Below, piece after piece: positions 27,642-51,654 of a stretch of DNA of 64,000 nucleotides. The notes beneath the pieces are model-generated. The model was not told the origin of the DNA, made no database searches, and saw only the letters and a list, made by a program, of their open reading frames with translations. Where the stretch lies: contig JAJEKV010000324.1 of the NCBI GenBank assembly GCA_021234155.1, forward strand, positions 62,001 to 126,000, in the 5' to 3' direction. Every line of letters starts with the position of its first letter. The stretch's first letter is position 1. The stretch comes from Isoetes taiwanensis (lineage: Eukaryota > Streptophyta > Lycopodiopsida > Isoetales > Isoetaceae). The position numbers and the translations under genes were made by a program.

Positions 27642-27826
27642 GCATCGCGGAGATACTGTATCATGGAGGTGAAATTAAGTAGTACCGTGGAGGTACGAAA
27701 AATACTAATGTATCGTGGAGATACAATAGTTAGTATCGTGGTGATACTATCAATTGATACCGTGGAGGTACAAACGATAGCAATGTGCCGGGGAGGTACA
27801 AACATATATCGTACTGTGGAAGTACG
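27642..27826 (+). repeat. Array of eight short hairpins (GTAYC-GTGGA-GRTAC)
   Basis: Eight units of about 15 bases, each a 5-bp stem around a GTGGA-like loop: GTACCGTGGAGGTAC, GTATCGTGGAGATAC, GTATCGTGGTGATAC, GTACTGTGGAAGTAC and variants. Stem bases change in matched pairs between units while the loop stays nearly constant. It lies in the interior of the LTR element near its 3' LTR. Confidence 0.7.
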
Positions 27827-27956
27827 CGCATATCCGTAACTATTTTCTGAATTTGCAGAACCTTCAGACGTATGGGGCAATCGCCTTAAGAAGGGATGGG
27901 GCCCACTGGAACGTCTCTAGAAGATCGCGGACGATCTTCTTTAAGAAGGGATGGAT

Positions 27957-29936: not shown

Positions 29937-30320
29937 TCATTTATGAAAATACTTGTCGAGTATTTTCATGCAGTTGCACGACTCTTCTGAATCCCACATG
30001 TTCCACATTTGATTTTCCTTCACATAAGCAGGCACACTTTCTGCAGCCAAAAGTCCTTCCAGCCATGGTTTGAGCTGCTTCAAAAGGAAATCGGAATTCA
30101 ACTTGTCTGGAGCAAAACTATTTGGACATATCATTGTGTTCGGCTGGTTGACAGAACCCTTATATCTGTTGTCATCTATCAACAATGTGTTTTTCACTTG
30201 GTATTTCCAGTATTTCTGGTACACTTTGGACAGATCCTTAAGGAAAATTGGCTTATTAACCACTTTTAATTTTGTGTTGGTGCAGTCATCCTGATTCCAC
30301 ACACTTCTTGGAAAAGGGCT
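29937..30320 (-). pseudogene. HAD / FCP1-like (NLI-interacting) phosphatase fragment
   Basis: The minus-strand frame reads VWNQDDCTNTKLKVVNKPIF, then NTLLIDDNRYKGSVNQPNTM, then PWLEGLLAAESVPAYVKENQ. This matches the C-terminal half of plant small CTD-phosphatase-like HAD proteins; the IDD is HAD motif IV. The N-terminal half with the catalytic DxD is absent. It abuts the truncated end of a LINE on the same strand, so it is probably a broken or captured last exon. Confidence 0.55.
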
Positions 30321-31455
30321 TTACCTTCCTCCTCAGAAATCGACCACATAATAATTGGTTTAGGAGGGACATCAGATCTGTTAATGATTGAATAAATCTT
30401 ACTAACTTTATAATGGCATTTACCATTCAAACACCAGTTAGTTATTTTAGGAACAGACTGATTCAGCCAAGTATGAGGGAGGATATATTTGATATGAAGG
30501 TAAATCTTCTTGTAAGTAGAGGTACCCTGTGAGATATTCCTCAAGGAGGTCCAGGATATAAACTTATTATTGATGTAGAGATCATTTATGACAGTGAAGC
30601 CTTTATCAGTCCATTTTTTATAAATTCTCGGGTGTCTCAAGGCTAGAACCTTATTAGGATGATTCTTGAGAGCAGGATTTCAAAATATAGTCATCTGCAG
30701 GTTTAGATCATCTGGAGAAGCATAATCAAAACATGAGTAGACCTTATTGCAAGCCATAATAATATTTCTCATAAGAGGGGATGTATTAGGCCCTGGGTGT
30801 AGCTCATTAAAACAAGAGTCAGGAATAATCTGAGCAATAGAAGGATGACCATCTGGGTAGGAGCAAGATAACCAAAAATTGATGAAGTGAGAAGAAGGGC
30901 TGGAAATATTAGTAAAGGATTTCCAAATATATTTACCAGCTAGGGCACAGGCCTGTAAATGAAGATTTTTACATCTTAACCCTCCTAGATGCTTGGCTCT
31001 AGCTATTGAGTTCCAATTTACGAAATGGGATCCTTTCCAAATGAATCTTCTGATAATTTTCTCTAGCTCAATATAAACAGCCTTTGGAGCATATGTGAGA
31101 GCTGGTCAAGACAGAATTTGCAATAAGAGTCCTTCCTGCAAATGATAAGCAGCCTCTATAATTATTTAATTTCCTCTTAATTCTGTCAACGATAGGTTGC
31201 TCGAGACCTTTTAAGCAAGGATTCAAGGAGAGAGACATTCCCAGTAACAAAGAAGCCTGATTGCAGTTTAGAACTTTAATATTAGCAAGGCTTGGCTGGA
31301 TGTTGTCACCAATAACAGTGCATTTGGCCAAATTCAGACGAACTCCAGAAGCAGCAGAGAATTGATTGATAATCTCAAGAAAGAATTAAAAAAGAAGCAA
31401 ACACAGAGTGTCCTTTTGCATCATAATTTGTAAAGGCCTCAAAAGTGCAATTTAC
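30320..31455 (-). mobile_element. L1-like LINE, 3' half
   Basis: The minus strand continues a LINE reverse transcriptase from a degenerate YADD region (LQIMMQKDTL near 31420) through FLEIINQFSAASGVRLNLAK, SLSLNPCLKGLEQPIVDRI and a CLSFAGRTLIANSVL block at 31068-31385. The C-terminal segment follows (30340-30640: HPRIYKKWTDKGF, then WCLNGKCHYKVSKIYSIINR). There is no 3' tail. It continues the 5' half at 51655-56000, the two being separated by about 20 kb of inserted DNA. Confidence 0.7.
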
Positions 31456-31650
31456 GAAAACAGAAGAATAAAGTATGTAGAAAATAAATGGTAGTTACTC
31501 TAATTAAACATTGCTGGAGACAGAATAATGGATTCCATTTCAAAATTCGTCTTGAATTTATAATACAATACATGTTATACAAAGGTCATAAAATGTATAG
31601 AGAGTTCCTCGTATAAATCTATACCGACATTTTAAAATTGAAACATGTCG

Positions 31651-31664
31651 GTATAAATTTATAC
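31651..31664. promoter_or_regulatory. Single GTATAAATTTATAC palindrome
   Basis: Exact 14-bp palindrome; a diverged copy is at 31611. The TRIM inserted four bases beyond it. Confidence 0.7.
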
Positions 31665-31668
31665 GTGG

Positions 31669-32138
31669 TGTAACGGGCCCATGGTAGACCGCTCGAGTAT
31701 TCGAACCTTGAATGTGCCTGTGGGGCGTTCCCGAGACACCGGCATAAATGGGTAGAAGCAACTATTCATAAACGTCTAGATGGTTTTGCCTAGTTGGTTA
31801 AGGGCATGTCGGTTAGGAACGTTACAGTTGGTATCAGAGCAGGTCTCGAGTTCGAGTCTCCATGGGTGCCTATATGCATGGGTAATTTGCAAAGACTTGG
31901 TAATCATTGTGACATGGTATGACATAGGCATAGTATAGCCTTGGATGCTCGAGGACGAGCATAGTTTTAGTGGGAGAGACTGTGACGTGCCCATGGTAGA
32001 CCGCTCGAGTATTCGAACCTTGAATGTGCCTGTGGGGCGTTTCCGAGACACCAGCATAAATGGGTAGAAGCGACTACTCATAAATGTCTAGACGGTTTTG
32101 CCTAGTTGGTTAAGGGCATGTCGGTTAGGAACGTTACA
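31669..32138 (+). mobile_element. TRIM (miniature LTR retrotransposon)
   Basis: Two 158-bp LTRs (31669-31826 and 31981-32138; TGTRACG...GTTACA), eight differences between them, flank a 154-bp interior. The interior begins with the tRNA-Met primer site TGGTATCAGAGC (31829) and ends with the purine tract TTAGTGGGAGAGAC. Flanking 5-mers CGTGG and CGGGG are a target duplication with one change. There is no coding capacity, as expected for a TRIM; it looks structurally whole. About 5% LTR divergence indicates an old insertion. Confidence 0.9.
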
Positions 32139-32858
32139 CGGGGGGAGGTTCTTCCCAATCCACAGGGCTCTCATCTCCCTTTGGGTCTGTTTCTTGAGAT
32201 GCCACAAAGCCAGAGACACCTGAGGGTACTGGAACAGGCTGCTTGGCGGGCTCTAGCTCAACTGGTTCGAGATCTACAAATTCGACCTCCTCATCTTTTC
32301 TTCCTATTTTTGGAGGCTAGATTTCAGTGTAGGTGCTTTTGACGTTCCCAGCACCATTTTTTGCTCCCAATTCCTCATTCTCATCAGGAACTTATTCTGG
32401 TCTTGATGAAACTGATTTTGTTTGGATCTATGTCAACTGACACCACATTACGCCCCTGTTTAAGGGCACATATAGATGTGGTGCCAGTTCCGAAAAAAAC
32501 ATCCAGAACCCAGTCCCCTGGGCGTGAAAACCACTGTATTAGGTTATTAATGAGCCTTTGGGATTTTTGGTAGTGGGACACCATGGCGCCTTGCCTCAGT
32601 GGATCTCTCAGTTTCTGTAAGACAACAGGGAATTGAAATGCATTGCATGGTGGAGATTTTTCATTCTGAGTGTTAAAGTGCACTATGGTCTTTTTGGTGT
32701 CAACGCTGTAGTAGCCTATGTGGAAGTGTTCGAAGCAGCTGACTAACCGTGGACCCCCACCATGACCTTTGGCGTTAGTCTTCAACCTGGCAGCAGAAAA
32801 GAAATGGTAAGTCAAACATAATAAGAAAACAATACTAATTCATACGACATGTGCTGCG

Positions 32859-33017
32859 GTATAAATTTATACCGTAGGGGTTCAACGGTATAAATTTATA
32901 CCCCAGGGCTTTTGCAGTATAAATTTATACCCTAGGGCTTCTGCAGTATAAATTTATACCCCAGGGCTTCTGCGGTATAAATTTATACTGCAAGGCTTCT
33001 GCGGTATAAATTTATAC
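32859..33017. repeat. 29-bp tandem array of GTATAAATTTATAC (6 exact copies)
   Basis: Palindromes start at 32859, 32888, 32917, 32946, 32975 and 33004, exactly 29 bp apart, with spacers like CCAGGGCTTCTGCG. The array fills the intron between methyltransferase motifs IV and I. Confidence 0.85.
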
Positions 33018-34077
33018 AGCATGGTCTTATTGAAATATGAAACGTAAGCAAATGTAAAGCTTACGAAATGCAGTTTTCAAATCTGGCATTGCAGAACCTC
33101 CTACAGATTTGAGCACCGACATTGTTTGCAGGTCGGAATAAAAGATTATGACCCTCCAATTTGCGTACAAGGTGACATCCTTCAGGCCATCCAAGAAAGC
33201 TCTTACTTGTACATGAGTGAAAGCCTCATCATCGAAAACACTGTCTTTGATCTTAAACCCGTAAGGAATGTCGGCTATGCACAACGTGAAGTTCTGTTTG
33301 TCCATCAGGGTACCCAGTTTAGTGCAGTCACCATGAATAACCTTGTACAAGCAGTCCTGGCCATAGGTAGTAAATCTCTCTTAGCCACCGTCAGAACTGT
33401 TTGATGCGACTTGCTTGCCTTGTTCGATGGCCTTTAGTCTTTGCCTTTCCTCTTTGGCCCTCCGAACCAGATTCAAGAAGCCTGCTGGCAGGCCTTTCTT
33501 CTTGTTCCGTAAGAAAAGAGTAAGACAAATGCACACTAACAAAACACGTGCTCTACAAAACTCACCCAACCACTGAAGTTCACAACGTGTTCTCGTATTA
33601 TGATGTCTGTAGTACAAGTGGGATAAAGGAGCTTGCACTCTTCCCAGTCTTCTAAATTTAGTTGCTTCATTAACTCAGACTGGCATGTGACAATGTCCTT
33701 CTGACTGCAAACAAGAAGAGATTGTTAGGCAAAATAATGGCATAAGTACAGTGAATAGTAAAGGCTGCTTACGTCTTAGCTTCCTTAGCCATTTCGTCAA
33801 GAGTAAATTCTTTCGCCACAACTCTTTCCAGGAGCCGCACAAATATTTCTTTGCTCTTTAAGCCCTGTAGTTGTGTCCATGGTACTATGCTCATGTTTTT
33901 TTTGTTTTGCTTCAGAACTTTTTTTGGGTTTTTTACCAGCGGTGCTAGCTTGCTCTTTAAGTTCACCATCTTCGAACATACAAAAGATTCTTTCCTATTG
34001 TTGAAATTTAAGGACAAGCAGCTTAATGCATGTGGCATGTAGCGGTACAATGAATGCTAGAGTCAGTTGAGGACACG

Positions 34078-34346
34078 GTATAAATTCATACCATTCTCGA
34101 TCATGGTATAAATTTATACCATTGAAGGCCGAGGTATGAACTTACTCCGCATTTTAGAATGGTATAAATTTATACCCTGACATGGAACGGTATAAATTTA
34201 TATTGCTCCAGGACATGGTATAAATTTATACAGCTCTAGGACGCGGTATAAATTTATACCGGTTCCAGCGAGTGGTTTGATCTAAAGTACCGTGGCATGG
34301 ACCGGTATAAATTTATACCGCTTCATGTCGCGGTATAAATTTATAC
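34078..34346. repeat. 28-bp tandem array of GTATAAATTTATAC (9 units, 6 exact)
   Basis: Units start at 34078, 34106, 34134, 34162, 34190, 34218 and 34246, exactly 28 bp apart, then at 34305 and 34333. Two diverged spacers (GATTCCAGCGAGGGGTTTTA-like) are duplicated. It lies between the ParB-like exon and the Lys-rich exon. Confidence 0.85.
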
Positions 34347-35417
34347 CGATTCCAGCGAGGGGTTTTATCTAAACTAGACATTCTAAACTACCTTATAACA
34401 AACTTAAATTGGAAGGAGGGAATACTTACTTGGCCATCTCTGAAAGCAAGTTGGAAGTAGTTGTCATACTGCTTCACTGCCATGATGGGCTTCTTATCAG
34501 AATCACAACTCAAGCAACATTCTGTCACACAAGCCTCCTGAAGTTCTTGGAGCTTGTTCTTCTGCTTCTTGAAGTCCTCTCCATGCAATTGCTTGAACTT
34601 AACATATTCTCTGTGCATGAAGCGGATTTTGTCTATGAGCCTCATCTTCAACCTAAAGTCATTGTCCAGGTTGTGGCTCACAGCAATGATTTTGGCCTCC
34701 TCGTCTGTCAACCCAACGTAAATATAGGCCTCCACGCTCTTCTAGACATCTTTTCTGCTTTCCTCCTTAGATAGCTCTTTCCTGGCCTTGTAACTGTGTG
34801 TTCCACCGAGAACATAATATGTGTAGTCCTCGAAGTCGGCCTTCCTGTAATGCCTAAGCTCCTAGACCTACTCTCGATCAACTATAAGAACCAGCGGCGA
34901 CACATGGGCATGTGGATTTCTGCGCATTCTCTGCTTTAATATTGCCACATGTGCTGCATACGGTTTCCTCACTTGAAGCACTCTGACCCCATCCTCATTT
35001 TTTGGCGGCCTCTTGATTGTGCTCAGAGTTAATGAAATTGTTTGCTTCAGGAGCTTTGTTTCATTTACTTTTTTAAGTATTGCACTTGACCTGTCCGAGG
35101 GTCTCAAAATAATGTCGGCCCCAAGTGCCTTTTGAAGTGCTTCTGCAGACTCTTCTATTGACAAGGCCTTGGTCTGCCTAGATTTCTTTGGTGCCTGTGT
35201 GAATGACCAAAGCTTTCCTCTTTCCCTTCCCTGTGACTACCACCTCCTCTTCCTCTTCCTCCTCCTCCTTCTCTTCTGCCTCAATGTCTTTTTCCACTTC
35301 TTCCTTTGCCCGTGGGTACTAGAGGCCCTTGACAATGACTTTCTCGACACACGGAATGGCTGAGGATAGTATGTCTACTATATCCTGCATTCAGGATGCT
35401 CAGTTAGTTTGCTGCCT

Positions 35418-35431
35418 GTATAAATTTATAC
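35418..35431. promoter_or_regulatory. Single GTATAAATTTATAC palindrome
   Basis: Exact copy between the N-terminal exon and the acidic linker exon. Confidence 0.7.
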
Positions 35432-35772
35432 ATTAAAGGAATAAACAACAGAAGGGAGAGGTTCACACTCACATAGCAGTTTTCTGTTTTCCGAAACGTA
35501 TTCATTGACATCCTTTGGCTTACACATGCTTATCCTGAACATTCTGCTGCTCAGAAAGTACTCGACATCGCCTTCATCATTATCGCAGTTCATTAAGATC
35601 TCATCCTCATTTTCTGTGACCGTCAAACTTGTCATTTCTCCGGCAGGATAGTAGTCCTCAGCCTTGAACTTCCCCCTTTCTGGCTTGTTGCATACGTACA
35701 AGTACGCATCGATAGGGTAGCGTTCTCTCGCTCCCTTGTGGACGTACCACGTAACATCCCTGAGCTCGTAGG

Positions 35773-36338
35773 TGTTAGTCCTGTGCCTCCTGGTACAGGA
35801 CTATTCATGCATACAACGGACCAGGTCAGGTCCAAGGAGCCACGGTCAGTCGTCCAAAGCCCAGCAGAAGACCAAGCAGCAGCAGACCACGCAGTCAAAG
35901 CCTTCCAAGAGGCGCCGCTCAGACAAGTGACGGCCCGTCACTGTCCGTATCAGCGTCAGCGAGATTTCAGGCTTTTCAAGAGGCACCGCCAACATTCCTG
36001 CAAATCAGGCCTCCTTCCAGGAGTCGGCACCGAAATCAGTCAGAGTGTCTATATTGGGCCAAAGGCCATTGTACTATATAGTAGAGCTAGCATATGATGG
36101 CTAGATGAGTTTTGAGTCTTGTCTCTTTTCAGTCTTCTCTCTATTGCGAGAGCTCATGTATGTTCATCATTGATATCAAGGAAGCTTATCATTTTCCTCT
36201 CATTGTTCTCTTTTGTTCTGTTCTCTTCTTCTTGTTCTCTTCTTGCAAATCCCGCGTGACATAGTCCCCACGGATTCTCTGTTAGATCCACGAGGTCCTC
36301 CAGGGCTTTTTTGAGAGTTCCAACCCGGACCCCAAACA
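35773..36338 (+). repeat. 5' LTR of the Ty3/gypsy element
   Basis: Starts TGTTAGTCCTGTGCC, ends GACCCCAAACA. Confidence 0.85.
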
Positions 36339-36425
36339 CCGCCGCATTGCCGGAGTGCGATTCGATTTTCCTTTCTTACGCCGCCATGCCGCCGAAACTT
36401 CACGCCCGAAGAACTCCTTTCCCGG

Positions 36426-37960
36426 ATGGCGTCTCGCTTGGAGGCCATCATCGGCGGGAAGCCGTTTCAGCGACATGTATGGCTCTGCTTTTATGACATT
36501 GAGGGAGGCCACATTCGGTCTAGGGCTCAGTCGGTGCCACCCACCCCTCGTGTCCTATCTCGTCCCAGTTCCCCGCCTCAAGCGTGCAAACATTGCTCAC
36601 AGCCTCAGTCTCCTCATCACTGCTCGGGAGCCCTATCCGCTCAACACGCTCAACCTTACTTTCATACCCCCAAAACATGCCTTCATCCATCGGTCTTACG
36701 GCCATGCGCCTCTTGCCTTCACAACCATCATCCCCTACGGGTGGACAGGGATATCCACATGTCTCTTTTGCTCCTCCCCAGGAATTTCCCTTCCCTACAT
36801 TTCCCACCACTCTTCCTGTTTACAACCTTACAGACCTCAAAACCAATGATCAGGCACCTCCAGTACCTCCACCTCAGCAACCCCTTCATCAGGGTCTTTC
36901 CGGCACCATGCCACCGCCAACTCCACCTCAACTATCATGTTCCTGTCAGCCCAAGCACTTTCACCTCTACCTTTCGGACCCTTAAGTTGACTTATCCCAT
37001 CTTTGGCAAACGACGAAAGGCAAACCCTTAGACCAAAGTGCTCGGGCCCACATGGAAGAATTTGAGGCTCGCTGTCTGGAATGGTCATGCGCCAACCTCA
37101 ACTGAAATTCCACATCTTTTCCACCACACCGCTGGCGGCTCCCTCATCAATGGCTCATGTCCAACAAAAGCCACTTTGGAAACAAGATTGGTCGAGAAAT
37201 GGCGCTTTTCTTTTCTCACTATGGGACCACGGATGATGATCAACTTCATCTCAAGCAACTCAATGACCTTCAACAAGAGTCCACGGAGTCCGCCTGGGAT
37301 TTTTGCGGATCGTCTTCACATTACGCGCCAAAGCAAACTCAAGGAGTACCCCCACACGAGCCGGATCTTGGTCGGTTTCTCCAAGGACTTCCTCCACCTA
37401 TCCGACTCATGATGAATACTGCTACCAAGACTTTGGAGCAGGCTATCGACCTTTGTCAATCTTTCGGCCAATGTTTCCTCCCGCGGGCGTGGCTCTTCGG
37501 GAGCTCCCTTTCATTCCTCCCATCATGGTTCCCGCACGGATGTCCAACCTCAACACGCCAATCCGCAGTGCAGTCAGATCTGGTGCCATATCTGCAAATA
37601 TCAAGGCCACTTGGCGAATGAGTGCAACTCCACCAATGGCCCGCCTCATTGTAAAAGATGCAACATGTGCAATCATGCCACGGAAGAGTGCACTCGCACT
37701 CATCCTACACCTTTCCGCAACAAGATGGTTTATCAAGTGCAAGCAACCCCTCAGCAACAATCCCACTATCAGCCGCAACCACTGCAGACTCAACCCAATC
37801 AACTCTATCAGCAACCAGAGCAACAACGGGGACCCAACACCTGCTCCCCTTTTGATCCTTCTAAAGCTCAATGTTACCACTGTCAAGAATGGGGTCATAC
37901 CACCACGGCATGTCCTCAACTTCCACAAGTTCAGGTGCAGCTTCCTGGTATAAATCAGAC
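36426..37960 (+). pseudogene. gag region of the Ty3/gypsy element
   Basis: Proline-rich N-terminal region, capsid-like segment and CCHC knuckles (CYHCQEWGHTTTACP near 37873; a C.RCNMCNHATEEC segment near 37655). Fossil. Confidence 0.65.
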
Positions 37961-38639
37961 CACCTCGGTACGCCTCACGGCTTACCAACTTTGGATTGCC
38001 AATGGCAAACAAGGCCCGCGTTCGGTTCTTCGGAAGCCACCTCGTGCGCCTCAGCAATCACGCTATCAACCAGCTCCTGCAAATCAACCTCAGATGGATC
38101 AACAAGCACAGGAAGAAATTTTTCAAGCTCTCAATCCTCCAGTCCAGCCATCAAATTGGGTTGGTTTGGTCTCACGCCAGACCAGGGCGTCACGTACCTT
38201 AACCATTATTCCTAATGGCACGCAACCTGCCTTTGCAGTCGACACAATTCCTCATGCAGAAGACAAAAAGGTCCATTTTGCACCTGATTTGGAGAAACTC
38301 ATGCCGCATGTCATGCCTAAAGTTCGCCAAAGCATTCTGAACCTCATGCAAGCTGCTGAAGGCCGCACGTTGGCTAATGTTCATGCCACCACTAGAGCTC
38401 AACAAAGACATGACGCACCTTCCACGTCTCAACCTCCACGCTCTCAGCCATATCCAAATATAGCTGCTGAGGTTGACCTACTCAAAGAAGTTACTGCTTC
38501 CTTACCACGCACTCCAGCACCCGTGGATCCAGCAGATCCTTTTTCTCATGTGCCTCTGGAACTCCAAGAGGAGCTGGCAAAAATCAAAATTCCTCTAAGT
38601 CTTGCAACGATTTTGAAACTCTGTCCTGTTCTCAAGGAC

Positions 38640-39020
38640 CAGTTACCACTCCCAACTGTTTTGGTTGGGGCTGTTGCTACATCTACACCCACGGTACATG
38701 CCACGGTGGGCAATCAGCAAGTCAACCATGTTCAAATTGACGGAGGTAGCGCAGTTAATCTCATCACGGATAAACTCCGCAAACAAATGGGCATCAAACA
38801 ACTCTATCGTGCCCCATATGACGTCAAATTGGCCAATGGCCATATCACGCGACCTCAAGGCGTCACGCCTCTTCTTCACATCAACATTGGTGATCTCCGA
38901 TTCCCCTTGGAATTTGGTGTTTGGAAGGCTGGAGAAGATCCAGGTGATTATGAAATGTTGGTCGGCGGACCTTTTCTTCGCGAAAGCCAAGAGTATCCAT
39001 TATCGGGCCCGCGGATCAGT
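38640..39020 (+). pseudogene. Protease region of the Ty3/gypsy element
   Basis: VQIDGGSAVNLI near 38733 is the aspartic-protease signature, followed by the MLVGGPFL block near 38958. Fossil. Confidence 0.65.
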
Positions 39021-39659
39021 TAGTCATCACGGATGGTCACCTCAATGCCACCATGGACTTGGAAGCGAGGCAAAATCATTTCAGTCGACAATGAACCCTC
39101 TCTCTTCGACACCGATTCCGAGGGACGCCGCGAGAATATCTATCAAGTTCGGGCTCCACCGCGAGTGCCGCTCGTCATCCTACCCGAATATGCTGATCCT
39201 TGGGGAGAAATGACTCTTGATCGGGATTTGTGGGCTGCTTTGCTTGACCCTTACGGCTCCTTGCAATGAATCCAACGTGTTGATCACTTTTCAGATGTTG
39301 AAACTCCTGCTGCTCTGTTGATGTACACGCATTTGTCATGAAGCAACCCACAGCTTGATGAAACTTCGACAACCTCTCTTTTTCACCACCTTGAGTGCCA
39401 CGCATCTGTTATGCTTCAACCTCCCGCTCACATTGTCCAAGACACGGAAGTTATCCCCCATATTCGGACTCACGAAGTCGAGATTGTGGGCGTGGGCAAC
39501 AATCACTTTGTCAGTATTCTTTGCAAATCTTCCGACACCCTATCGTGCAGGGGCCGTCACTTTGTTCAAAAAGTTCAAACACATTTTAAGCACGAGCTCT
39601 GAGAGATCTTGGGGATCAACAAAACCTTGGGGAACTCACCATTCCTACCAAATCGATGC

Positions 39660-40960
39660 ACGCGTCGGTTTAGCTTAGATGCGATGGGCTCAACCCCAAT
39701 TACCGCGGATCGCATCAAGGCGGAAATTGACAAACTTCTTGCTGCGGGGTTTGATCTATGAGGTCAAACATTCTGAATGGGTGAGCCCCATTGTCATTGC
39801 ACTCAAACACAATGGTAAGATCCGCGTTTGCGTGGACTACCGAAAACTCAATCAGGCCACGGAGCGTGATCATTTTCTACTTCCCTTCACGGACCGGGTT
39901 CGAAGAGGTTCTTTGGACATGAGATGTACTCCTTCATGGATGGTTTTTTCGGCTACAATCAGATCTCAATCAAAGAATCTGATCAACTCAAGACTACTTT
40001 CACCACCCCGTGGGGCACTTTTGCCTACAAGGTGGTTCCTTTTGGATTATCAAACTCTCCTTCAACGTTTCAACGCATCATGCTCTCAGTCTTTCATGAT
40101 TTTATGAAGGAAAATCCCTTCTTGCAAATTTTTCAAGATGACTTCTCTCGCCCGTTCCATGGCTGACCATTTGGATAAATTGGAACTTCGTCTTTGAGAA
40201 ATGTGATGAGTCAGGCATTAGTCTCAATCAGAAATGCACCTTTTGCGTCACTTGGTGTTTGTTTGGGACACGTTGTCGTGAGAAAGCGGTATCACCACGG
40301 ATCCGCCAAAATCAGTTTGTGTGCTCAAGGCTCAAGCACCGGCCAATATCAAGGAGACACGCTCTTTCTGGGTAAGGTCAATATTACTCCACCTTCATTC
40401 CGGACTTACGGCCATTGCAGATCCCATTCATAAACTCACGGTGATGAATCCACGGGCTTGAATTCCCCAGCGGATCTTCGCTTCCAACGATTGAAGCTCT
40501 TGCTTACTCAGCCCCGGTTCTTGTTCCTCCTCAATGGGACAAGCCCTTTCATGTTCATGTCGATGTCACCGGCATTTGCTATTGAGCTGTTTCTTTCTCA
40601 AGAATATGATCGCGACACCGACAAACCAAACCGATATGCGGTATTAAAACTCAATTGCTGGCTGGCGCAACTACTCGCCGCAGGCGTGAAGCCTTGGGTT
40701 TAATTTTACGTGGTCCAACGCTTCCGTCACTATCTTTTTGGGCAGTCGGATCAAATTCTTTGTTGACCACCAAGCACTTCTTTATTTGATCAACAAATCC
40801 ACGCCCACGGGCGCATTGCTCGTTGGGTCCTTCTTCCTCGCAAGAATTTGCACCTTTTGAAATTGTTCACAAAGGCAGGCAAATCTCATGTTGTTCGGAT
40901 TATCTTTCACGCATCCACACGGATGATCCCTCCACCGGATTTCTGACGCTCAACTCTTTA
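39660..40960 (+). pseudogene. Reverse transcriptase and RNase H region
   Basis: Gypsy RT blocks are visible (VCVDYRKLNQAT near 39835, FGLSNSPSTFQRIM near 40045), followed by an RNase H/connection segment. Fossil. Confidence 0.65.
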
Positions 40961-41169
40961 CAGTCACGGCAACACCACATTGGTTCCATGACTTTCAGCA
41001 AGATATCTCCTCACAGCGCCCTTCCACCGAGGGCGCCACGCTCTCTCAAGCCAGCGACAATCCCGTCGACACCAATTTCTCCGCAGGTCGTGACTACACC
41101 ATGGTTGCCGGCCATCTTTACAAAAGGGTAAGGATACCGCCCTTCGATTTGTGTTCTCACTCATGAGGT

Positions 41170-42309
41170 CCCGTGATATTGTTCGAGAAGCCCATGAAGG
41201 GGCTCGGTGGTGGTCATTTTCATGGTGACACCACGCGCACGCAAAATCCTTCTTGCTGGTTACTTTTGGCCCACGCTCTTCAAAGGGCGCTCACGCCACG
41301 CTCGCGACATGTGATGCTTGCCGGTGTAGGGATCTGCCCACGGCCCCGTGGCTCTTCCCTTGACGCGGGCCGCCACGCCACTTCCCTTCGGTAAATGGGG
41401 GATGGATTTTTGTGGGACCCATCGACCCCCGCGCGGCACACCCGTGCCCGCTACATTCTGGTTCTCACTGACTACGCTACCAAATGGGCGGAAGCTTGCG
41501 CACTTCCAGACAACACTGCGGCAAGCACAACCAAGGTCATCTATCAACAAATCATCACGCGCTTTGGCTGCCCCATGGAGCTGGTCAGTGATCGTGGTGT
41601 CCATTTTATCAATCATACTATCAAGGAGCTGACGGATTATCTCCTGATACATCATCACAAGAGCACACCTTACTATCCTCAAGGGAATGGTTTGACAGAA
41701 AGCACCAACAAAACTCTGGTTACAATTCTCAAGAAAATTTGTGACGCTTCTCGCACTGACTGGCAACACAAACTTCCTACTATTCTTTGGGCTTACAATA
41801 CTTGTTTCAAAATAGCTACCGGTCACACTCCTTTCAAATTGGTTTATGGTCAAGAAGCTCTCATGCCGTTTGAATACATCCTTCCAACTCTCCGTTTTCA
41901 ACTGGCTACCGCCCATAATCCACCTGCTGCGCTCAAAGAACGGGTTTATCAATTGGAACAGTTGGATGAACTTAGAAGGGATGCTTATATTCGTGTTCTT
42001 CATGGACAACAGTTGCAAAAATCTTTACATGATAAACGTCTGAAGACAAAAACATTCAAAGAAGGAGATTTGGTTCTTCTTTATGATTCTCGGTACAAAA
42101 ATTTTCCGGGTAAGCTAAAGTTTCGATGGCTTGGCCCTTATCAAATTGTTCAAGTGGTGCAACCCAGCGTTTTCAAACTGGCTGAGTTAGATGGAACTCC
42201 ATTACCTACACTGGTTAATGGCTTTCGCCTCAAAACATTTCATACCACAGACAGTGAAAATCAACCAACAGATGCTGTTCAAGACACAAACACAACAGAT
42301 AGTGGCTAA
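41170..42309 (+). pseudogene. Integrase region
   Basis: The catalytic core reads VLTDYATKWAEA near 41470, ELVSDRGVHF near 41580 and STPYYPQGNGLTES near 41665 (the DDE positions), followed by a C-terminal segment with GDLVLLYDSRYK near 42070. Fossil. Confidence 0.75.
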
Positions 42310-45300
42310 ACCAGCGGCATATTTATATTATAGGTGGAAATTTTACAAAATGTGGGCGCAGCCCAGCTATTTCCGCTATGGGCAGTGCCCTGTTTACAAA
42401 AACGGGCTCAGAGCCCTATCTACTACAATCCTAAGGAGAACACCCTCTACTCCGGGTTCGGAGCAGAGGTGATACGCAGGATGTGGTATGCGTTCCGTTC
42501 AGGGTCCCAGCGCAGGTGCAGAATCACCTCCATCCCATTTGTATGGGGATCGGCATGCTCAGCCATGCCGACACACCAACCGTCCATCGCAATGCCACGG
42601 TTGTGGCATCGCCAGAGGTCCAGGCAGTTCATTTTACAAGTAATCCACTCCAGGCAGTTGGAGGGCATAGTGCATTTGTCATGCAATCCAGCAGCAGACA
42701 TACTGAGCGCCATCGGATGCCTTTGCTTCACTCCCGGTTCGTCTTATATAGCCAACCGAGGAACTCCTTGTCGACGTGGACCAATCAGAAAAATTGCCAA
42801 CGTGGTTGCAATGCAAGGCTGTTTCTAAAACGAGAATCTTTTCTCCCGCCGCATATCTAGCCATGGTACCTTCTGACATATTCGTTTTAATGATATCCCA
42901 CTTCGAGTTGCCAGAATTAAATGCCCTTCCTTCTTTTCATGACCGTCAAACATTAAGGTGCGTCCTTTTGCCACCTGTCACATCCGATCATTCTCTCACG
43001 TCTCATCTCCACCGTTCCTTGTTTCTCCCTTTACTGCTTGGGGACTTAGCCAAAATTTTGCCTCTCAATCGCCTCCTTGGCATCTTTCGACACCTGGCAC
43101 CATCAACGGTTGCAGCTTAGCCCTAATCATGCCCCTTCGTCCCACGATTCGCGGCGCCCTAAACCTTTTCGTCTCTGCGCCGCCGACTTGCTCTCGCTCT
43201 CGCCTTTGCATCACCGTTCTTGTCCAAAGCTCTTTGCCATGGCTGCACCAAAATTTCCTACACTTCAAGCCTCTTTGCTCGGGGAGGCGGCTCTTTTTCG
43301 AAGTCGGTATCTTTCTTGACGCCCACTTTCCGTGAAGCCCTTGTTGGCCCGAATCGTGAAGTCGCGAAACGCCAGAAGCTTTATGAATTCTCACAAATGG
43401 AACTTAGGCTCCAAATCCGGACCCGGTTAAGCGGTTCTCGCTCACATCGTCAACAGCCTTGAGGATACACGGCGGCATTTTGTAAGGCCATATTCTTGAT
43501 CAATGAACCTTGCAACAGAGCTACCGTAACTCCAATGGTTGTGAGACACACCACCATTTAAGCTGACCATTGCACCTAATTTTTCGAGGTATTCCATATC
43601 CCTTTGCAACCCCTTGTTTATCTTGGTACGCCATACGGGATCTCGATGTCAGCGAGTTTGGTGCTCCACGCTTATCAAGCCAGCGTGCATCGCCGACAAA
43701 TATTGACAAGCCCCATGAAACTTTTGTTAAGTTTACGTGGTAATAAGTTCCTTGGGTATTCTATCAAGAACACCCATATCAATAAACCTTTCTATAATAT
43801 GGTGATCACTGCTACTCGCTCCAACCACCACATTGATTGGCCCCAATTGTTGTTCTACCGTCTTCTCCAAGAAGTTGACCGCCTTCGGGCTGCCACTTCT
43901 ACCTCGGAAACTTCCGTGGGAGGCCATCTTCAAGCCCTCATCTGTCATTACTTTCCTCCCACACCTCCTCATTCTCAAAATTCCCTTTCGGCCAGTCCCT
44001 TCATCGGACTCACCAAGTTGGCACTTCCGCCCTTCTTCTTACGGTCATGTCAACCTTGGCACGCGATGTCACTTGTCTCTCCTCCTCCTCTACGTAAAAC
44101 CAAGCACTCCGGTCCTCACCATGTCTCCCCAAGCGTCACAAACAAGGCAAATGGCGGGCTCCACCACCCAAAGCACCCTCGTCAGCGTTTGTATCAGTAT
44201 CAGCAAGATGTTCAAGCTGCTGCTCTCAAGTTACAAGAATCCCAAGAAGCTCTCATGAATGGGGTTCAAACGGCCCTGGCGGCCTCCGACGCGGTTCACC
44301 GTGACCTTCATCATGCTACTGCGCAAGTTCGGACTCACGGAGACCCAGCTTCAAGACAAGCGGGGCTCTTTTACAAGTGCGTGAAGATCTCAAGGCTGCC
44401 CAAAATGAGAATACTACGCTTGCCGATCAGCGAGGCACACTTGCGAGACCACCATTCAAGAATTATTGGGCGAGGTCAAGGCGAGAGACTCTTTTGGTTG
44501 ACAAAGATAAAGATATTGCCAAACTCGACCGTATCTGATGTAACTCTCTCGAATTACAACACTCAAGCACAAGATCTTACGGTAGCGTGATGCTCAAATT
44601 GCCTCTTTGGGCTCGGCTTTTCCGCGGAGACCTCTCGGCTCACCTCTCTCCAAGATCGCCTTACGGAGGTTGAAAACGAGAAAATTCTTGATGGCGCTGA
44701 GATTGCCGGGTGCCGACTCAATGCTCCTGGGCAATCCTCCTCACATGTCACACCTTCGAAGCGGGTCCGTGACCGATCCATGTTAGAAAAGGACCACCGG
44801 ATCCGTGACCTCGAACAACGGCTAGAGCAAGCTATTGATTCTGGCGATGAGGCTCGGGCGAAACTTGAAGGCTATGTTACCATTGCTCTCAACACTTTGT
44901 TGACTTCCCTATTCCTTCGATTATCCGGATTATGTAGTTGCCCGCCGCCACCTCTTTCTTCCGAAGTGGCATACAGTTGATGGTCCGTTAATGTTCCCCT
45001 GCGCCTTTTGCCGATTTTCTTGGATCTGGCCGGACTTACGTTGAAGACAAAGGTTTATACGTGCCCTTTTAGTCTTTGATCTCATTCACTGTGACGATCC
45101 GGATATGATCACCTTCAAAGTTGTACAGCCAATGGCGTACATTTTTCATGATTTCTATCTGGCTGATACACAGGACAAATTTCGAGATGGGCCCCATCAG
45201 AACTTTTAAGGTGACTCCACCGTTCAATAGTTGCTTTTGGATAACAACCCCTACCTGTCTGATCATGCTAAGACGCATGCTCTTCATCACGAGTACATGC

Positions 45301-46278
45301 CTGAGCTTGCCTATCATTTACCTCTATGGCAAGCTGAAGTGTTGCAGCAGATACAAAAGAATCTTGGACATCCTGAGGATCTTCCCTTTGCCCAAGTCTA
45401 TATGCAGCATTTGGCAGGTTACACTCAACTGCGTGCTCTTCTGGATAGCAAGACAGTTCCCACGGGTTGGGATAGCCCTCCTGTCTACTCTCGACTCTAC
45501 GCCCGGTGGGATCGGCGGTGCAAAGCCCCTCGATCCGCCCTTGCCGATTGAATTTAGGGGCGCTTTCAGCCCCACGCCCCCGGGCTGGCTCCCTCTCCGG
45601 TATGCTTCTCAGGTGCCCCTCCACGCCCGAGGTTTTTCGATTCGACTGGCGTCTTCCCTTCGGACCCACGGTCATGGATGGCCCGCGGGATCGACTCGCC
45701 TCGGATCTCGGCGGATCTCGGTGGGATCCCGATTTGTCGGGACGATCGATTGGGAGGATAATGCCACCTTAGACACTACTGAAACACGGATCTATATTGC
45801 CAATGGCGTGGTTGGCAGCGACCGGATGCTATTCATGGCCTCGACACCTTCTTGCGGAATCGTCGCCACCTCCCTCGACCCTTGATCCACCGTCGGCGGG
45901 TTTCTGTCTTTGCTCTAAAAGCCTCTGGTCAGCTCCTCAAATCGGCCCGGCGTCCATCTTTTCTCGCGCAACCTTGCCGAATGCGGTGTCGGTGCTTTTC
46001 GGTCTCGGACACGCCTCCTCATGGAGTGCGGTTTGTTTCTTCGAAGCCCATCTTTGCCCTTGAAGACATGGTGCGCTCTCATTTCCTCACGGGGGCCGAT
46101 CCACGCCCTTGGGATCAACACTCCTGGCGCTCTTCAAATCCGTCGGGATCTCGCCGGCAATTATCATAATGGTGCCCGTCCTCATTCCGTGAGGATCCCT
46201 TTTCAGACTCTGGTTTCCCGCCCTCGGAAACACTTCCTCCTTTTCTTCACCACGAAAGTGTCGTTTGGTGGGGAGGAG
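42310..46278 (+). other. Extra 3' region of the Ty3/gypsy element
   Basis: About 4 kb between integrase and 3' LTR. It includes coding-like stretches, one with a coiled-coil pattern (RIRDLEQRLEQAIDSGDEAR near 44800). Additional 3' sequence is characteristic of the Tat/Athila group; I cannot assign a function. Fossil. Confidence 0.45.
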
Positions 46279-46857
46279 TGTTAGTCTGTGCCTCACAGTA
46301 CGGGACTATTCATCATACAAGCGGACGTGTCAGGTCCAAGGAGCCCTGATGGGGCGCGGGTCGGTCGTCCAAGGCCGCCAGAAGACCAAGCAGCCGGACC
46401 ACGCAGTCAAAGCCTTCAAGAGGGCTTTCGGACAAGTGACTACCATCCTTTGCCCGTATCGGCGTCGGAGATTTCGAGCTTTTCAAGAGGCACCGCCAAC
46501 ATTCACGCAAAATCGGACCTCCTTCCAGGAGTCGGCACCTTAATCAGTCAGAGTGTCTATATTGGGCCAAAGGCCATTGTACTATATATATGAGTAGAGC
46601 TAGCATATGATGGCTAGATGAGTTTTGAGTCTTGTCTCTTTTCAGTCTTCTCTCTATTGCGAGAGCTCATGTATGTTCATCATTGATATCAAGGAAGCTT
46701 ATCATTTTCCTCTCATTGTTCTCTTTTGTTCTGTTCTCTTCTTCTTGTTCTCTTCTTGCAAATCTCGCGTGACATAGTCCCCCGGATTCTCCTGTTAGAT
46801 CCACAGGTCCTCACAGAGGGCTGTCTTGCAGGAGTTCCCGAACCCAGACCCCAAACA
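46279..46857 (+). repeat. 3' LTR of the Ty3/gypsy element
   Basis: Starts TGTTAGTCTGTGCC after a purine tract (GGTGGGGAGGAG), ends GACCCCAAACA. Confidence 0.85.
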
Positions 46858-46925
46858 GTAGGATTGGGTCTTCGGAGCTGACTGTTGACCTTTGCCTTTA
46901 AAGGAAATCTTTGGGCTGAAAATGC
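46858..46925 (-). pseudogene. 5' continuation of the ParB-methyltransferase exon
   Basis: Beyond the GTAGG target duplication the minus strand stays open in the same frame (SFKGKGQQSAPKTQS, meeting YELRDVTWYVHK on the other side). A candidate acceptor TTTTTACGCATTTTCAG lies upstream. No start codon is visible in the exon, so an earlier exon is likely. Confidence 0.45.
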
Positions 46926-47125
46926 GTAAAAAACGGGCTTAAACGTCATGGAAACTGTGTTTATCTCTAATTTTTCCGTAATTAAGTACTAAAAATATTG
47001 TCTTAGGGAACCTTTATGGGGTGTTATTTTACACTTTTTTTCATTGCAAACTGTATTTTACACTTTTTTCCGTTGTCTTGGAAACTGTATGATTTTATAC
47101 AGATTTTCGAGGCGACGTTCTGACG

Positions 47126-47482
47126 GTATAAATTTATATCGTGTGAGTTCTCCGTGGTATAAATTTATACCGAGGAGGTGGTCTCCCTATATAAATTTAT
47201 ATTGCAACTGTTCTCCCGCGGTATAAATTTATACAGACAAGATCCTAAGCGGTATACACTTATACTGCCAATGCTCTCCAGTATAAATTTATACCATATG
47301 AACACGGCTTAGCACTTTGTTGGTATAAATTTATACCGAGAGACCACCTCCTCGGTATAAATTTATACTGCAGAGAACTCACACGGTATAAATTTATACC
47401 GAGAGACCTCCTCGGTATAAATTTATACCGATAGCGGTATAAATTTATACCAATAGAGTTCAACCTCGGTATAAATTTATAC
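47126..47482. repeat. Palindrome array in the divergent intergenic region (12 units, 9 exact)
   Basis: Units lie mostly 29-33 bp apart. The left part (47141-47185, GTGTGAGTTCTCC...GAGGAGGTGGTCTCC) recurs inverted at 47335-47385, so the array is itself built as a large inverted repeat. It lies upstream of both divergent genes. Confidence 0.85.
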
Positions 47483-47750
47483 CGAAAGAGCAAAGACAAG
47501 AGAACATTTAAGACATTAAAAGAAATGGCAAAATAAAATGATACGGGTTAGAAACTTACGTGGCCATGTTCGTATGAAGATGCTTTTAGCTGCTGGGAGG
47601 TGCAAAGAGGGGCGAGTATATAAGGCGGATCGCGAGCTCCTTCGAGTCCAAACAGCGTATATAGATAATGTGTTCGCCTCTGCCGCCCTTAAGTACTATT
47701 GCCACACATGCGCTTCCGTATGGAATCTGTCCACAACGTTTCTTATACGG

Positions 47751-47977
47751 TCCCTGTTTGATTTTACACCACGACTGTATAAATTTATATGCTCTCTGTA
47801 TAATTTTATACCTCCCCTTCCGTATCTTGTGCTTCTGCTCTGTATAAATTTATACCGTCCCTGTTTGATTTTACACCACGACTGTATAGATTTATATGCT
47901 CCCTATAAATTTATACCGCCCTCTGTCTCTTGTGCTTCTGCTTTGTATAAATTGATATCGTCTGATATAAATTTATA
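47751..47977. repeat. Diverged palindrome array just upstream of the transposase start
   Basis: A 107-bp unit (CTGTTTGATTTTACACCACG start) is duplicated. Each unit holds three or four copies of the palindrome, only one exact (47842). The array ends about 25 bp before the ATG at 48001. Confidence 0.75.
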
Positions 47978-48000
47978 CTGTGTGTGTCTACTTGCTCACT

Positions 48001-51000
48001 ATGGCAGGAGAGAAGAAAGCGTCTGAGCCACCCCATTCTACTCGCCGGCTCCCTCCTCCTATGGTTTTCACACCCATTCCTCTGCCAACGAAAATAAATC
48101 CTAATAGAGAAGTTGATGCTAGCTAAGGAACTTTTGATTCTGACACTCACAACCCCAGCCCTCCGTTCGTACACGTCGGCTTCCACCACCAGTGCAGTTC
48201 ACGCCACCATCTTCTACTCTTGCGCGTCGTTTACCACCACCTATGCAGAACCCACAGAACAACGCAACCTTCCTCCACCCATTCATTTCACTCCAGAAGC
48301 TTAGAACCCCTCCTCCCTTTCGTTTTAGTCTGTCTCCCCTAGTTCAGCTTAGACAGCCTACTGGGCACAAATCACTCCATCACCTCCATCGCACTACATA
48401 TGCCACTTTTAGTGGGAGCAGTCAACGCCATGTAACTCCTGTGTTTTATGAGACTACTGGAGTTGCTCAACTACGTCACTAGCCTCGACTTCTTTTTCCA
48501 ATGGAAAGGCAAACCTCTTCCACAAAAGATCATCCCACGCCTAATCTCACAGCATCCACTAGTACACCAGTCCATTCCTACCATGTCAGGCGAAGAAACA
48601 CCTTAGGTAGCTCTCTCAGATGATGATGTAGCACAGCCACAAGTGTCCCTGTTCGAATTTAAAGCTCCTCCTAGTGATAATCTTAAGCGAAACTTACACA
48701 AGAAAGCTTGTACATCCCAAAGGCGAAAGAAATTAATGGATGAGGGTCACTTGAGGGCAACACATACAAAACATTGTTGTCTTCAACGCTATTTGCTAAA
48801 GATTGGACTAAAAGAATTAAGGTTGATTCATGACAACTATAGTTCAATGACTTTCTTAGACCAAAGGGGCTGGGCAAAAGTATGCTGGTGGGTATCAAAA
48901 GCAGGCGTCCGGACACATGCTGACAGCACTCATATAGCACCCCATATGGCAGCTTGTTTAAGGTGTTACTGGTACTAGCACATGGTAATTAGGTAATCAA
49001 TAGAAATACGTAACAACTCCAATTAATAACAAGTGGAATACTATGATAGAATAGTACATCCAGGGTGCTGATCTAAGTGCTGGGGCCGCGTTTTTTTGAT
49101 ACCCACTAGCATACTTTTGCCCGGCTATGTAGCTTTCAATATTCGGCCAGATAATGGTGACAAGTTTACTTACACAGCTGGTGGCCACACCGTCTGCCAA
49201 ACGCCCTTCAAAAGGATTCATGCTTTAGGCAGCAGACGGCTTCACCGCCTGAAGAAAAGGTTTGACAAGAATCCTGGCGACTACTGCAATTCGGGAAGTA
49301 TATCCAGAATTCATGCGCTTCAATGTGTTTTTTGGATGGAAGGCTTCTTCAAGGAGTCTTGTGAGAAACTGCCTAACAGCCCTATGTACCACTTGAGTGA
49401 CAAGTTCACGAAACATGAAGTCTACAATAATTATAAGGATTTATGTGTTGAGGCTGGATAATGTCATGTATGCTACTCTTACTTCACTGTTCTTCGGAAA
49501 AAAGAATTTTCCCGTGTGTCTATTCCTAGAAAGTACCGTATGTCTGTTTGTGCTACATGCTCTGAATTAAAAGCTCAAAGATAGAATGCAAGGACACTTC
49601 ACGCTAAAAGTAAGCTTCCACAACATATTATTGCCTAGTTCAGTCTTTGGAAAGGAGAAAATTGACAAAACACAGGAAGAGAACAACCACTCAACTACAT
49701 ATCGGTTGTTATTAATGGAATGGACCAGAAGAAGACCAGCCTACCTCACTTTGTCAATGTGCCTAAGGATGCTCCTGAAGAAGATTTCATACATCTACAT
49801 GTCGTTGGTGCTATGGTTTTTAATGGGAAACTCTCTTGCAAGGCATTCTTAAACTATCCAAACATTCATGCTGATCCACAATTTTGAATAAGATTTTAAC
49901 CAGTCTGGAGCATATACCACCAGTTCTATACCTTCAGCTAGACAAGACGACGAGAGAGAATAAGAATCAGGCATTGTTTGCTTACTGTGCCATGCTAGTT
50001 GAAAAACAAATCTTCAAGAAGGTGAAAATTGGTTTTCTGCTTGTTGGTCATACACACGTTCAAATTGACCAGATGTTCAGTAGGTTCTCTAAATGTCTTG
50101 CTCGAAAAAAAACTCTCAGCTTGCCAGCAATGATTGAGGTTATCCAAGACTCCTACAATCCTCGCCCAGAAATCGAGATATTGAAAGCAAGGAATGGATT
50201 TTTCGGAGAGATCAAATGGATCAATGTGCAATTGAGCCCTTACGAAACATTACCTTTCAGCGTCAGATCAAATTCTCACTTGCAGATGGCAAGGCCATCT
50301 TACAAGGAAAGAAATATGCCACACCCTTGCAGTGACAGCTAGCAGCTGGTATTCAATTCATTCGCACCATCCCCGAGATTACTTCCATGCTCTCTGCAGA
50401 GCAAATGCCTCTAAAGAGCTTGAAAGAAATCACAAAGAGTAAAAAGGAGGGAAGAGCAACTGACTCAAACAAATCATTGGATTATATTGAGACCAGTATT
50501 CGGTCATGCTCGAATCACTTTGGGGAGGCAGATGCTTCATGGTGGCCTCAGTTTTTTTCTCAGCAACGTGACATGTTACCAGCCATGTCACAAGGTCAAA
50601 GACCTGTTGCATTCAACTGGACATCTAGGCAAACTCTGCCTATGCAAGCTGAGAATCAAGAAGAACATGTACAGCTAATTCCTAGCTCAGATGCAGATGA
50701 CAGAGTCATGTATACTGGCCCCAGACGCATGGCACAACAAGTTGTCCGGGTTTCTGGTTCAGTCTCAGAGATTCAAAAAGGAATGCTTGTTGCTGTCCCA
50801 GCTGATGATGATGAAACTAGCAAGCCATTAGGGCTGGCTAGAGTATTGAAGGTAACAAGAGAGGATGGAATTTCCACTCAATTAAAAGTGCACTGGATAA
50901 GAACAAGTGCTGCCAATGCTTTCAGTGGGAGTTATAGTTTGGAGATGGTAAAAACAGGAGTAGGAAGGAGAGCAAAGTCTAAAGCAAACACTAGTATCAT

Positions 51001-51298
51001 AGATCTAGCTGAAGTAAAGGTTCTTGCATATGAATTTGTTCTGACTGCTGCTAATAAGTTACGTGCGGTCACTCAAACTTTAATAAGGTCTACATGTGGA
51101 TTAGATAAACAATCTAAAAAGGTTACCAAAAAAGATGATGATGAAGACTCACTGGTGCACAGTGAGGAAGAAGATCGTTCGAGTACATCTAGTTTTGAAA
51201 GTGAGGGTGATGATGAAGGCTCTAGTGATCAAGGACTAAATGAGTCTGAGGATGACGTGCATCCTGATATTGCTGCAAAATGTAAGTTCGTTCGATGA
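48001..51298 (+). pseudogene. DUF7869-like transposase
   Basis: ATG at 48001 follows the palindrome array. A Pro/Ser-rich N-terminus leads to a Cys/His region (THTKHCCLQRYLLKIG near 48765, FLDQRG near 48858), interrupted by a 251-bp MITE and resuming with YVAFN at 49126. Then come CATCSELKAQR near 49555, INGMDQKKT (D at 49723), LQLDKTTRENKN (D at 49941) and VGHTHVQIDQMFSRFS (D at 50067). A C-terminal region with GMLVAVPADDDETSKPLGLA near 50790 and an acidic tail end at 51298. From memory this block order is that of DUF7869 proteins, common in mosses and animals. The three Asp residues are candidate DDD/DDE residues. Some stops and one frame change between D1 and D2 show decay. The gene diverges from the ParB-methyltransferase gene. 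Confidence 0.7.
48872..49122. mobile_element. 251-bp MITE with 4-bp target duplication
   Basis: Terminal inverted repeats of about 29 bp (GGGCAAAAGTATGCTRGTGG then GTATCAAAA) are flanked by GGCT on both sides (48868-48871, 49123-49126). Removing the MITE and one GGCT restores an open frame through DQRG/YVAFN of the transposase gene, which proves the junctions. There is no coding capacity. A 4-bp non-TTAA duplication narrows the superfamily (Sola-like or Academ-like are possibilities), but I cannot assign it. Confidence 0.85.
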
Positions 51299-51654
51299 CA
51301 CAAATATATAAACAGTTTTGTTCATAATTTTGTAAAATTTTCATAAGCTCTGAATACATCACTTCTTTATCACTTTACTGCCCTTTTTTTTTTTTTTTTT
51401 CATTGCCTATTTTTTGCTACACTTCATATAAGTAACTACTTTTTGTTCCAAATTAGGAGTCTCAAAATAGCTAATAAATATTTTTGCATAGAAGCTATGT
51501 TCAATCAACCCCTCAAAAAGGGTACCTGAATTACCTAAATTGTCACACTTGTCACGAATCTTTCAAAGATTATTTCTAAAGTGCATTTGGAGCAAATAAG
51601 TGCATTTCAATTTAAACTTTGTTACCATTGATTCTTCCTAAATCTCTAAAGTGC
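51299..51654. other. 3' flank of the transposase gene up to the LINE breakpoint
   Basis: AT-rich, with an 18-base T run near 51388. It should contain the right end of the composite element, but I find no terminal repeat matching 31456-31560 convincingly. Confidence 0.4.

Follow-up and report, generated by a model that had tools for sequence, protein, structure and literature searches.

A high-copy DNA transposon family of Isoetes taiwanensis carries a methyltransferase gene under purifying selection, a divergent DUF7869 gene and arrays of a 16-bp palindrome

We analysed a stretch of 64,000 nucleotides from the lycophyte Isoetes taiwanensis (contig JAJEKV010000324.1, positions 62,001 to 126,000; hereafter the window), in which an initial annotation had placed a minus-strand ParB-methyltransferase gene and a plus-strand DUF7869-like transposase gene divergently in one insertion. 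Our results show that the two genes belong to a single DNA transposon, of which the genome has many copies, and that they point away from each other within it. In the window Pfam found N6_N4_Mtase on the minus open reading frame (ORF) at 32384-32839 (E 8.4e-14, above the Pfam cut-off) and DUF7869 on the plus ORF at 49875-50342 (E 9.9e-38), as had been claimed. The genome (1,658,258,908 bases, 1,110 contigs) was then covered by protein searches, in which the scored copies were the best 150 of 2,867 first-look candidates for the methyltransferase and the best 150 of 7,387 for DUF7869; at least 150 copies of each gene are present. For 49 of the 150 best methyltransferase matches one of the 150 best DUF7869 matches lies no more than 30 kb away, in all 49 upstream of the methyltransferase and in 47 of the 49 on the opposite strand, that is, divergently. 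A divergent DUF7869 match 0-12 kb upstream was found for 41 of the 150 methyltransferase matches, and when matches were placed at random in 1000 runs there were on average 0.28 and at most 3 such pairs. Thus, the pairing is beyond chance. The remaining 101 methyltransferase matches may have a partner outside the best-150 DUF7869 list. The initial annotation had proposed that divergent pairs within 10 kb and common ends be sought in the same genome, and both were found; it had also named consistent absence of the partner as evidence to the contrary, and the partners co-occur.

The element is a cut-and-paste DNA transposon family of the lycophyte genome, present in high copy number, about 8.5 kb long and bounded by terminal inverted repeats of about 30 bp. 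Eight copies (L061-L068) were read across 10 kb each and, together with the window copy, nine were compared. Both inverted repeats are present in four of the eight (L062-L065), which are 8,471-8,617 bp long, and in the other four and the window copy one end only was recognised within the stretch read. In the two-ended copies the left inverted repeat is AACAAGGTTTAAAATGAAACGCACTTATTT and the right one starts AACAAAG. Genome-wide, 925 + 937 = 1,862 of these ends were found at no more than one mismatch and none with the reversed control. The 100 exact ends listed include 23 pairs that face each other across less than 15 kb, each of which combines one G-type with one A-type end; 13 of the 23 span 8.3-9.5 kb and four span 2.2-2.3 kb. 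Perfect 4-bp target duplications (TTAA, ATCC, TTAT and TAAC) were found in all four of the copies L062-L065. A fifth two-ended copy, C17:127987-130186 (L076/L075), is a 2.2-kb non-autonomous derivative that keeps both inverted repeats, and with it target duplications were found in four of the five two-ended copies read, the 2.2-kb copy being the one where none was found. It holds nine sites, at up to three mismatches, of the palindrome described below and a diverged piece of the first exon, and nothing in it matched the ParB-like and methyltransferase exons; immediately ahead of its left end the stretch read has a short DUF7869-like match. A 4-bp target duplication is characteristic of Sola, and that of the element agrees with the criterion of the Sola1 superfamily. 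For Sola2 the available part of PMC3627910 also gives 4 bp.

The window copy itself is a fossil. It extends from 31386 to 51623 and not from 31456 to 51654 as first annotated, because alignments with four other copies reach 31386 on the left and 51623 is the last position of the right inverted repeat. The copy lacks its left end, is divided by a nested long terminal repeat (LTR) retrotransposon, has two small insertions as well, and both of its genes contain stops in the tblastn alignments; longer open frames are present in other copies of the element. The palindrome arrays, inverted repeats, 4-bp target duplications and nested retrotransposon are additions to the initial annotation. The features of the window copy are as follows.

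31386-51623: whole transposon copy, degenerate
51594-51623: right terminal inverted repeat AAATAAGTGCATTTCAATTTAAACTTTGTT, with 2 mismatches to the right end of other copies; the left one is missing
35477-35772, minus strand: methyltransferase exon 1, interrupted by the retrotransposon; N-terminal domain with no Pfam match (tblastn, exon of L064 as query)
34430-35384, minus strand: exon 2, acidic linker and putative ParB/Srx-like region, with stops in this copy (tblastn; hhalign to ParB, P 0.0013-0.0015)
33775-33994, minus strand: exon 3 (tblastn; splice sites in L064)
33566-33703, minus strand: exon 4 (tblastn)
33102-33506, minus strand: exon 5, methyltransferase motif IV, ADIPYGF (tblastn; motif)
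32137-32785, minus strand: exon 6, methyltransferase motifs X and I and acidic C-terminus (tblastn; Pfam N6_N4_Mtase)
48694-48951, plus strand: N-terminal region of the putative transposase gene, first part (tblastn with copy L062)
49123-49617, plus strand: the same region, second part (tblastn)
49641-50494, plus strand: DUF7869 domain of the probable transposase, with candidate D-D-D residues (Pfam E 9.9e-38)
31610-31665: two palindrome sites at the 3' end of the methyltransferase gene
32858-33018: palindrome array in intron 5 (exon 5 to exon 6), 6 sites
34077-34347: palindrome array in intron 2 (exon 2 to exon 3), 8 sites
35417-35432: one palindrome site in intron 1 (exon 1 to exon 2)
47125-47483: palindrome array of 11 sites in the divergent intergenic region
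47776-47979: second intergenic palindrome cluster, 6 sites
35773-46857, plus strand: nested Ty3/gypsy-like LTR retrotransposon, foreign to the element (LTR pair; target duplication GTAGG)
31666-32133: local insertion in which a unit of 158 bp is duplicated (alignments of copies spanning the region skip it)
48872-49122: small insertion with inverted ends (absent from L061-L064)

In L064 the methyltransferase gene has six exons with GT-AG junctions. Its product would consist, in order, of an N-terminal domain with no family match, an acidic linker, the ParB/Srx-like region, a middle region and the methyltransferase, the last being divided between exons 5 and 6. L064 has one in-frame stop, in exon 2, and L061 has none across the aligned exons. 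No Pfam family was found for the exon 1 domain. Motif IV, ADIPYGF in exon 5, precedes motif I in exon 6; this is the beta-class order, and it was confirmed across copies as the initial annotation had it. Motif I reads DVFFGTGTTS in the window and, among the other copies read, DAFSGSGTT in seven of eight and DAFSGTGTT in one, and motif X is SHYQKPQRLINNL..FSRPGD. The nearest PDB entries are the adenine enzymes MboIIA, CcrM and RsrI, and there was an NCBIfam match to CcrM (1.5e-14) below the family cut-off. By this resemblance the enzyme is probably of the N6-adenine type. A close prokaryotic relative was not found in the searches made. A GTDB scan with two 7-residue patterns gave no relative, and a scan of viral contigs with two such patterns gave one locus. 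Among phages, 456 records matched a 586-residue query and 891 matched a 231-residue query; all matches listed (20 and 60, respectively) were less than 60% identical, and the best-ranked of those listed was 26.6% identical over the 231-residue query. In four proteins scanned from eight opened phage regions no ParB family was found at E ≤0.01.

The methyltransferase is under purifying selection in exons 3, 5 and 6. The ratio of nonsynonymous to synonymous divergence (dN/dS), taken as the median of pairwise values by dS bin with each locus counted once, was 0.057-0.219 for exon 3 (29 rows), 0.076-0.130 for exon 5 (33 rows) and 0.045-0.164 for exon 6 (34 rows). It was 0.40-0.51 for the N-terminal part of the transposase gene (36 rows) and 0.30-0.49 for DUF7869 (38 rows). 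Saturated pairs were excluded, 135-155 for each methyltransferase exon. Weighing against these values is the way in which the copies were picked, by similarity to the window proteins, which biases the dN of exon 6 and DUF7869 downwards because both served as search queries, whereas exons 3 and 5 did not. The transposase rows come mostly from loci picked by DUF7869 and the methyltransferase rows mostly from loci picked by exon 6, so the two represent different sets of copies. Some pairs had higher ratios, among them L062-L063 with 0.60 over the methyltransferase gene, and they count against a uniform picture; the ratio of this pair is apparently due to a frame-shifted stretch in L063.

The copies fall into lineage A (L061 and L064) and lineage B (L062, L063 and L065-L068). 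Between A and B the dS of the methyltransferase is saturated with a dN of 0.09-0.13, whereas the dS of the transposase is 0.15-0.57. Since rather similar transposases stand beside deeply different methyltransferase modules, the contrast is best explained by an exchange of methyltransferase modules between elements. The window copy is nearer to lineage A, with a dS of about 0.97. As for the second gene, DUF7869 is its sole Pfam match above the cut-off (E 5.1e-54 in copy L062), and no literature on DUF7869 was found in open-licence PubMed Central. Three nearly invariant aspartates, D29 (36 of 37 rows), D109 (38 of 38) and D151 (36 of 37), fit a D-D-D transposase, and we infer that the DUF7869 protein is the transposase.

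The third component of the element is GGTATAAATTTATACC, a perfect 16-bp palindrome with 7,218 exact sites genome-wide and none for the reversed control. At up to three mismatches there are 13-34 sites per copy and 226 in total over the nine copies, and the eight ten-kb loci have 192 sites as compared to a mean of 0.6 in 20 shuffles. In L064 and in the window the methyltransferase gene has sites in its introns (between exons 5 and 6, 2 and 3, and 1 and 2) and at its 3' end; the divergent intergenic region has others, and the aligned transposase part of these two copies has none. Beyond the limits of the element no site was found, either around the four two-ended copies or in the rest of the window. 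When L061 and L064 were compared with L062, L063, L066 and L068, the sites were 90% identical and the 12 bp following them 29%. Spacings of 26-34 bp account for 114 of the 174 that are below 70 bp. The first 50 sites listed form ten clusters, eight of which have a listed repeat end or gene match at 5 kb or less; the ninth (C8) is about 0.5 kb from a two-mismatch repeat end and the tenth (C14) has no known feature nearby. The chance of a repeat end in a random 10-kb stretch is about 1.1%. At least two sites are present in 29 of 30 methyltransferase loci and in one of the 30 loci centred on DUF7869 (L031-L060), where most stretches stop short of the arrays. An internal inversion is suggested for L065 (C1018:41513700-41523699) by the order in which its palindrome clusters follow one another and by their spacing.

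The initial annotation had read the minus-strand gene as a ParB-methyltransferase fusion. The methyltransferase part is upheld by Pfam, and for the other part the profile alignments point weakly to a ParB-like region in exon 2. When hhalign was run against six ParB N-terminal sequences (five of them from four plasmids), two stretches that look like ParB boxes were aligned with P 0.0013-0.0015 and a score of 25-27, whereas 20 shuffles of the columns scored no more than 17.4 and the methyltransferase alignment scored 11.2. Several results speak against the assignment. The probability that hhalign itself gives to the ParB alignment is 17-18%. Pfam ParB_N had no match to the exon-2 region and none in the genome, where two candidates were scored. 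DUF6551 did not reach its cut-off (best E 0.016) and was outscored by an unrelated family of autotransporters (0.0038). A PDB profile search with the region gave no ParB and five chance-like matches, the best being dihydrofolate reductase-thymidylate synthase (0.011), and a single-sequence fold of the window region had a predicted local distance difference test score (pLDDT) of 37.6 and was unusable. A GERR-type motif defines the ParB proteins that bind cytidine triphosphate, and GGTHSYKA is aligned where that motif is expected.

We propose that the element methylates itself at sites addressed by sequence and so counters host silencing in the manner of the VANC proteins, and we give this proposal an even chance. 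Marking of its own DNA and the countering of silencing, like the guiding of excision, had been put forward in the initial annotation as possible roles, and they are conjecture here as well. The DUF7869 protein would act as the transposase. The beta-class methyltransferase, probably N6-adenine specific and placed behind the ParB/Srx-like region, would recognise the arrays of the palindrome, both those in the introns of its gene and those in the shared promoter, and would methylate the DNA of the element. The methyl mark would keep the element transcribed or transposable despite host silencing, much as VANC does through the arrays of VANDAL elements, and short non-autonomous copies that have the inverted repeats and arrays would be served in trans. 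The placement of the arrays in the introns of the gene and in the shared promoter suggests control of the expression of both genes. A more complete version is that a ParB-like adenine methyltransferase reads a private palindrome, with thousands of sites found, as sampled, almost only in the family, and writes N6-methyladenine, a mark of bacterial type, that keeps the element active, the whole being a self-addressing system whose methyltransferase module passes between lineages under purifying selection; this version we put forward tentatively and at well below an even chance.

Against self-methylation it has to be said that collecting sites at up to three mismatches inflates their conservation per position, that helical phasing of the arrays was not significant for distinct spacings, and that the palindrome could instead be read by the transposase or a host factor. 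It is possible, if rather doubtful, that the arrays are bound by the transposase or a host factor and are needed for synapsis or transcription, the methyltransferase having other targets, such as host DNA or a short site throughout the element. The 2.2-kb non-autonomous copy would agree with this, as it keeps the arrays with no match to the ParB-like and methyltransferase exons, and in CACTA elements subterminal repeat arrays are bound by transposase-like proteins. However, in full copies the arrays are in the methyltransferase introns and the divergent promoter, away from the inverted repeats and absent from the coding part of the transposase that was aligned, and such placement fits autoregulation by the product of the methyltransferase gene at least equally. 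Less probable still is that the mark times transposition, as Dam methylation does for Tn10, with fully methylated ends being inactive and hemimethylated ends being active after replication. The nearest solved and curated relatives of the enzyme are adenine methyltransferases and methylation encoded by the element could provide control in cis, for which Tn10 is the precedent, but the conserved palindrome sites are internal and not at the ends, where control of the transposase would be expected. That the methyltransferase is a passenger gene, caught once and carried without function, would agree with the stops in exon 6 of many listed copies and of the window copy; it is rejected by the dN/dS ratios of exons 3, 5 and 6, and the protein is conserved (dN about 0.1) between lineages with saturated dS, so that very little likelihood is left to it. 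The prokaryotic origin of the enzyme class would agree with bacterial contamination, which the initial annotation had considered, or with an assembly artefact. Both are in practice excluded, because the gene has GT-AG introns and lies in an element with inverted repeats and target duplications, its 150 scored copies lie over many contigs, some of them tens of megabases long, and neither the GTDB scan with two 7-residue patterns nor the phage matches listed gave a close relative.

Some observations concern the surroundings of the element. The nested retrotransposon has a Pfam match to rve, the integrase core (1e-9), with an aspartyl protease and a Tf2-1-like SH3 domain below the cut-off. Minus-strand ORFs flank the element at window positions 29937-31385 and 51612-53399. 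The right flank contains a piece of reverse transcriptase (RVT_1, 2.2e-11) and the left flank has no Pfam match; as judged by eye, the ORFs on the left are part of the same long interspersed nuclear element (LINE) as the right flank. The element seems to have been inserted into this LINE and to have lost its left junction. Farther away, window positions 8001-10000 hold a purine-rich tract of degenerate AGGAAA-type repeats with a GC skew of 0.635 and an AT skew of 0.627, and at 25923-28918 there is a direct repeat of about 990 bp, 94% identical and 2 kb apart, the two units of which are possibly the LTRs of a short element.

The initial annotation knew of no described plant transposon of this kind. 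For land plants, no case of a transposon ParB-methyltransferase was found in the searches made of open-licence PubMed Central, and from the main text of the Isoetes genome paper the following terms are absent: DNA transposon, TIR, Sola, CACTA, MULE or methylation (PMC8566536). The pairing nevertheless has precedents. According to the available part of PMC12477816, Sola1-1_Ec32 of Ectocarpus, an element of 21.5 kb, encodes a ParB-methyltransferase of 1104 residues on the other strand from its transposase, and the paper cites transposons of green and red algae that carry such a protein; thus, the kind is already known. Sola1-1_Ec32 is like the Isoetes element in being a DNA transposon with an N6/N4 methyltransferase gene opposite the transposase, and it differs in belonging to a brown alga and in the size of both element and protein, the two being likened here by their descriptions. 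The Ectocarpus authors have already suggested that these proteins bind to the element that encodes them and modify it, and the same part of their paper does not mention palindrome arrays, a selection test or module exchange (PMC12477816). New here are the purifying selection on the methyltransferase, the apparent exchange of modules and the palindrome arrays. It is disputed whether plant genomes have a deliberate, locus-addressed mark of N6-methyladenine or N4-methylcytosine. A high-copy plant element that conserves a bacterial-type methyltransferase together with a candidate address of 7,218 sites makes this question directly testable, and it may extend the algal transposon ParB-methyltransferases to a vascular plant.

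Among enzymes, CcrM, MboIIA and RsrI resemble the Isoetes methyltransferase in having motif IV before motif I and the Pfam N6_N4_Mtase domain, and they are its nearest PDB and NCBIfam matches; unlike them, it is encoded by a spliced gene of a plant transposon and has two extra N-terminal regions. With bacterial ParB-parS the Isoetes protein may share a ParB-like fold, and parS is also a 16-bp palindrome. However, the Isoetes protein has a weak profile match, no conserved GERR-type motif and no evident helix-turn-helix or ParA partner. VANDAL, in which the nearest likeness in action might lie, is a Mutator-type element of Arabidopsis. As described in the available part of PMC5735166, VANC binds dense motif arrays in the non-coding parts of VANDAL elements and induces the loss of silencing DNA methylation, and its targets, which have the 9-base motif YAGTATTAY, often form tandem repeats. 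In both cases a factor encoded by the transposon would act on arrays of a short motif in the non-coding parts of its own family, the action of the factor being conjectural for Isoetes. As far as that source goes, the two differ in that VANC removes methylation and reads a 9-base motif, whereas the Isoetes element has a 16-bp palindrome and a methyltransferase. The Isoetes element may represent a second and chemically different solution to the problem that the VANC proteins solve.

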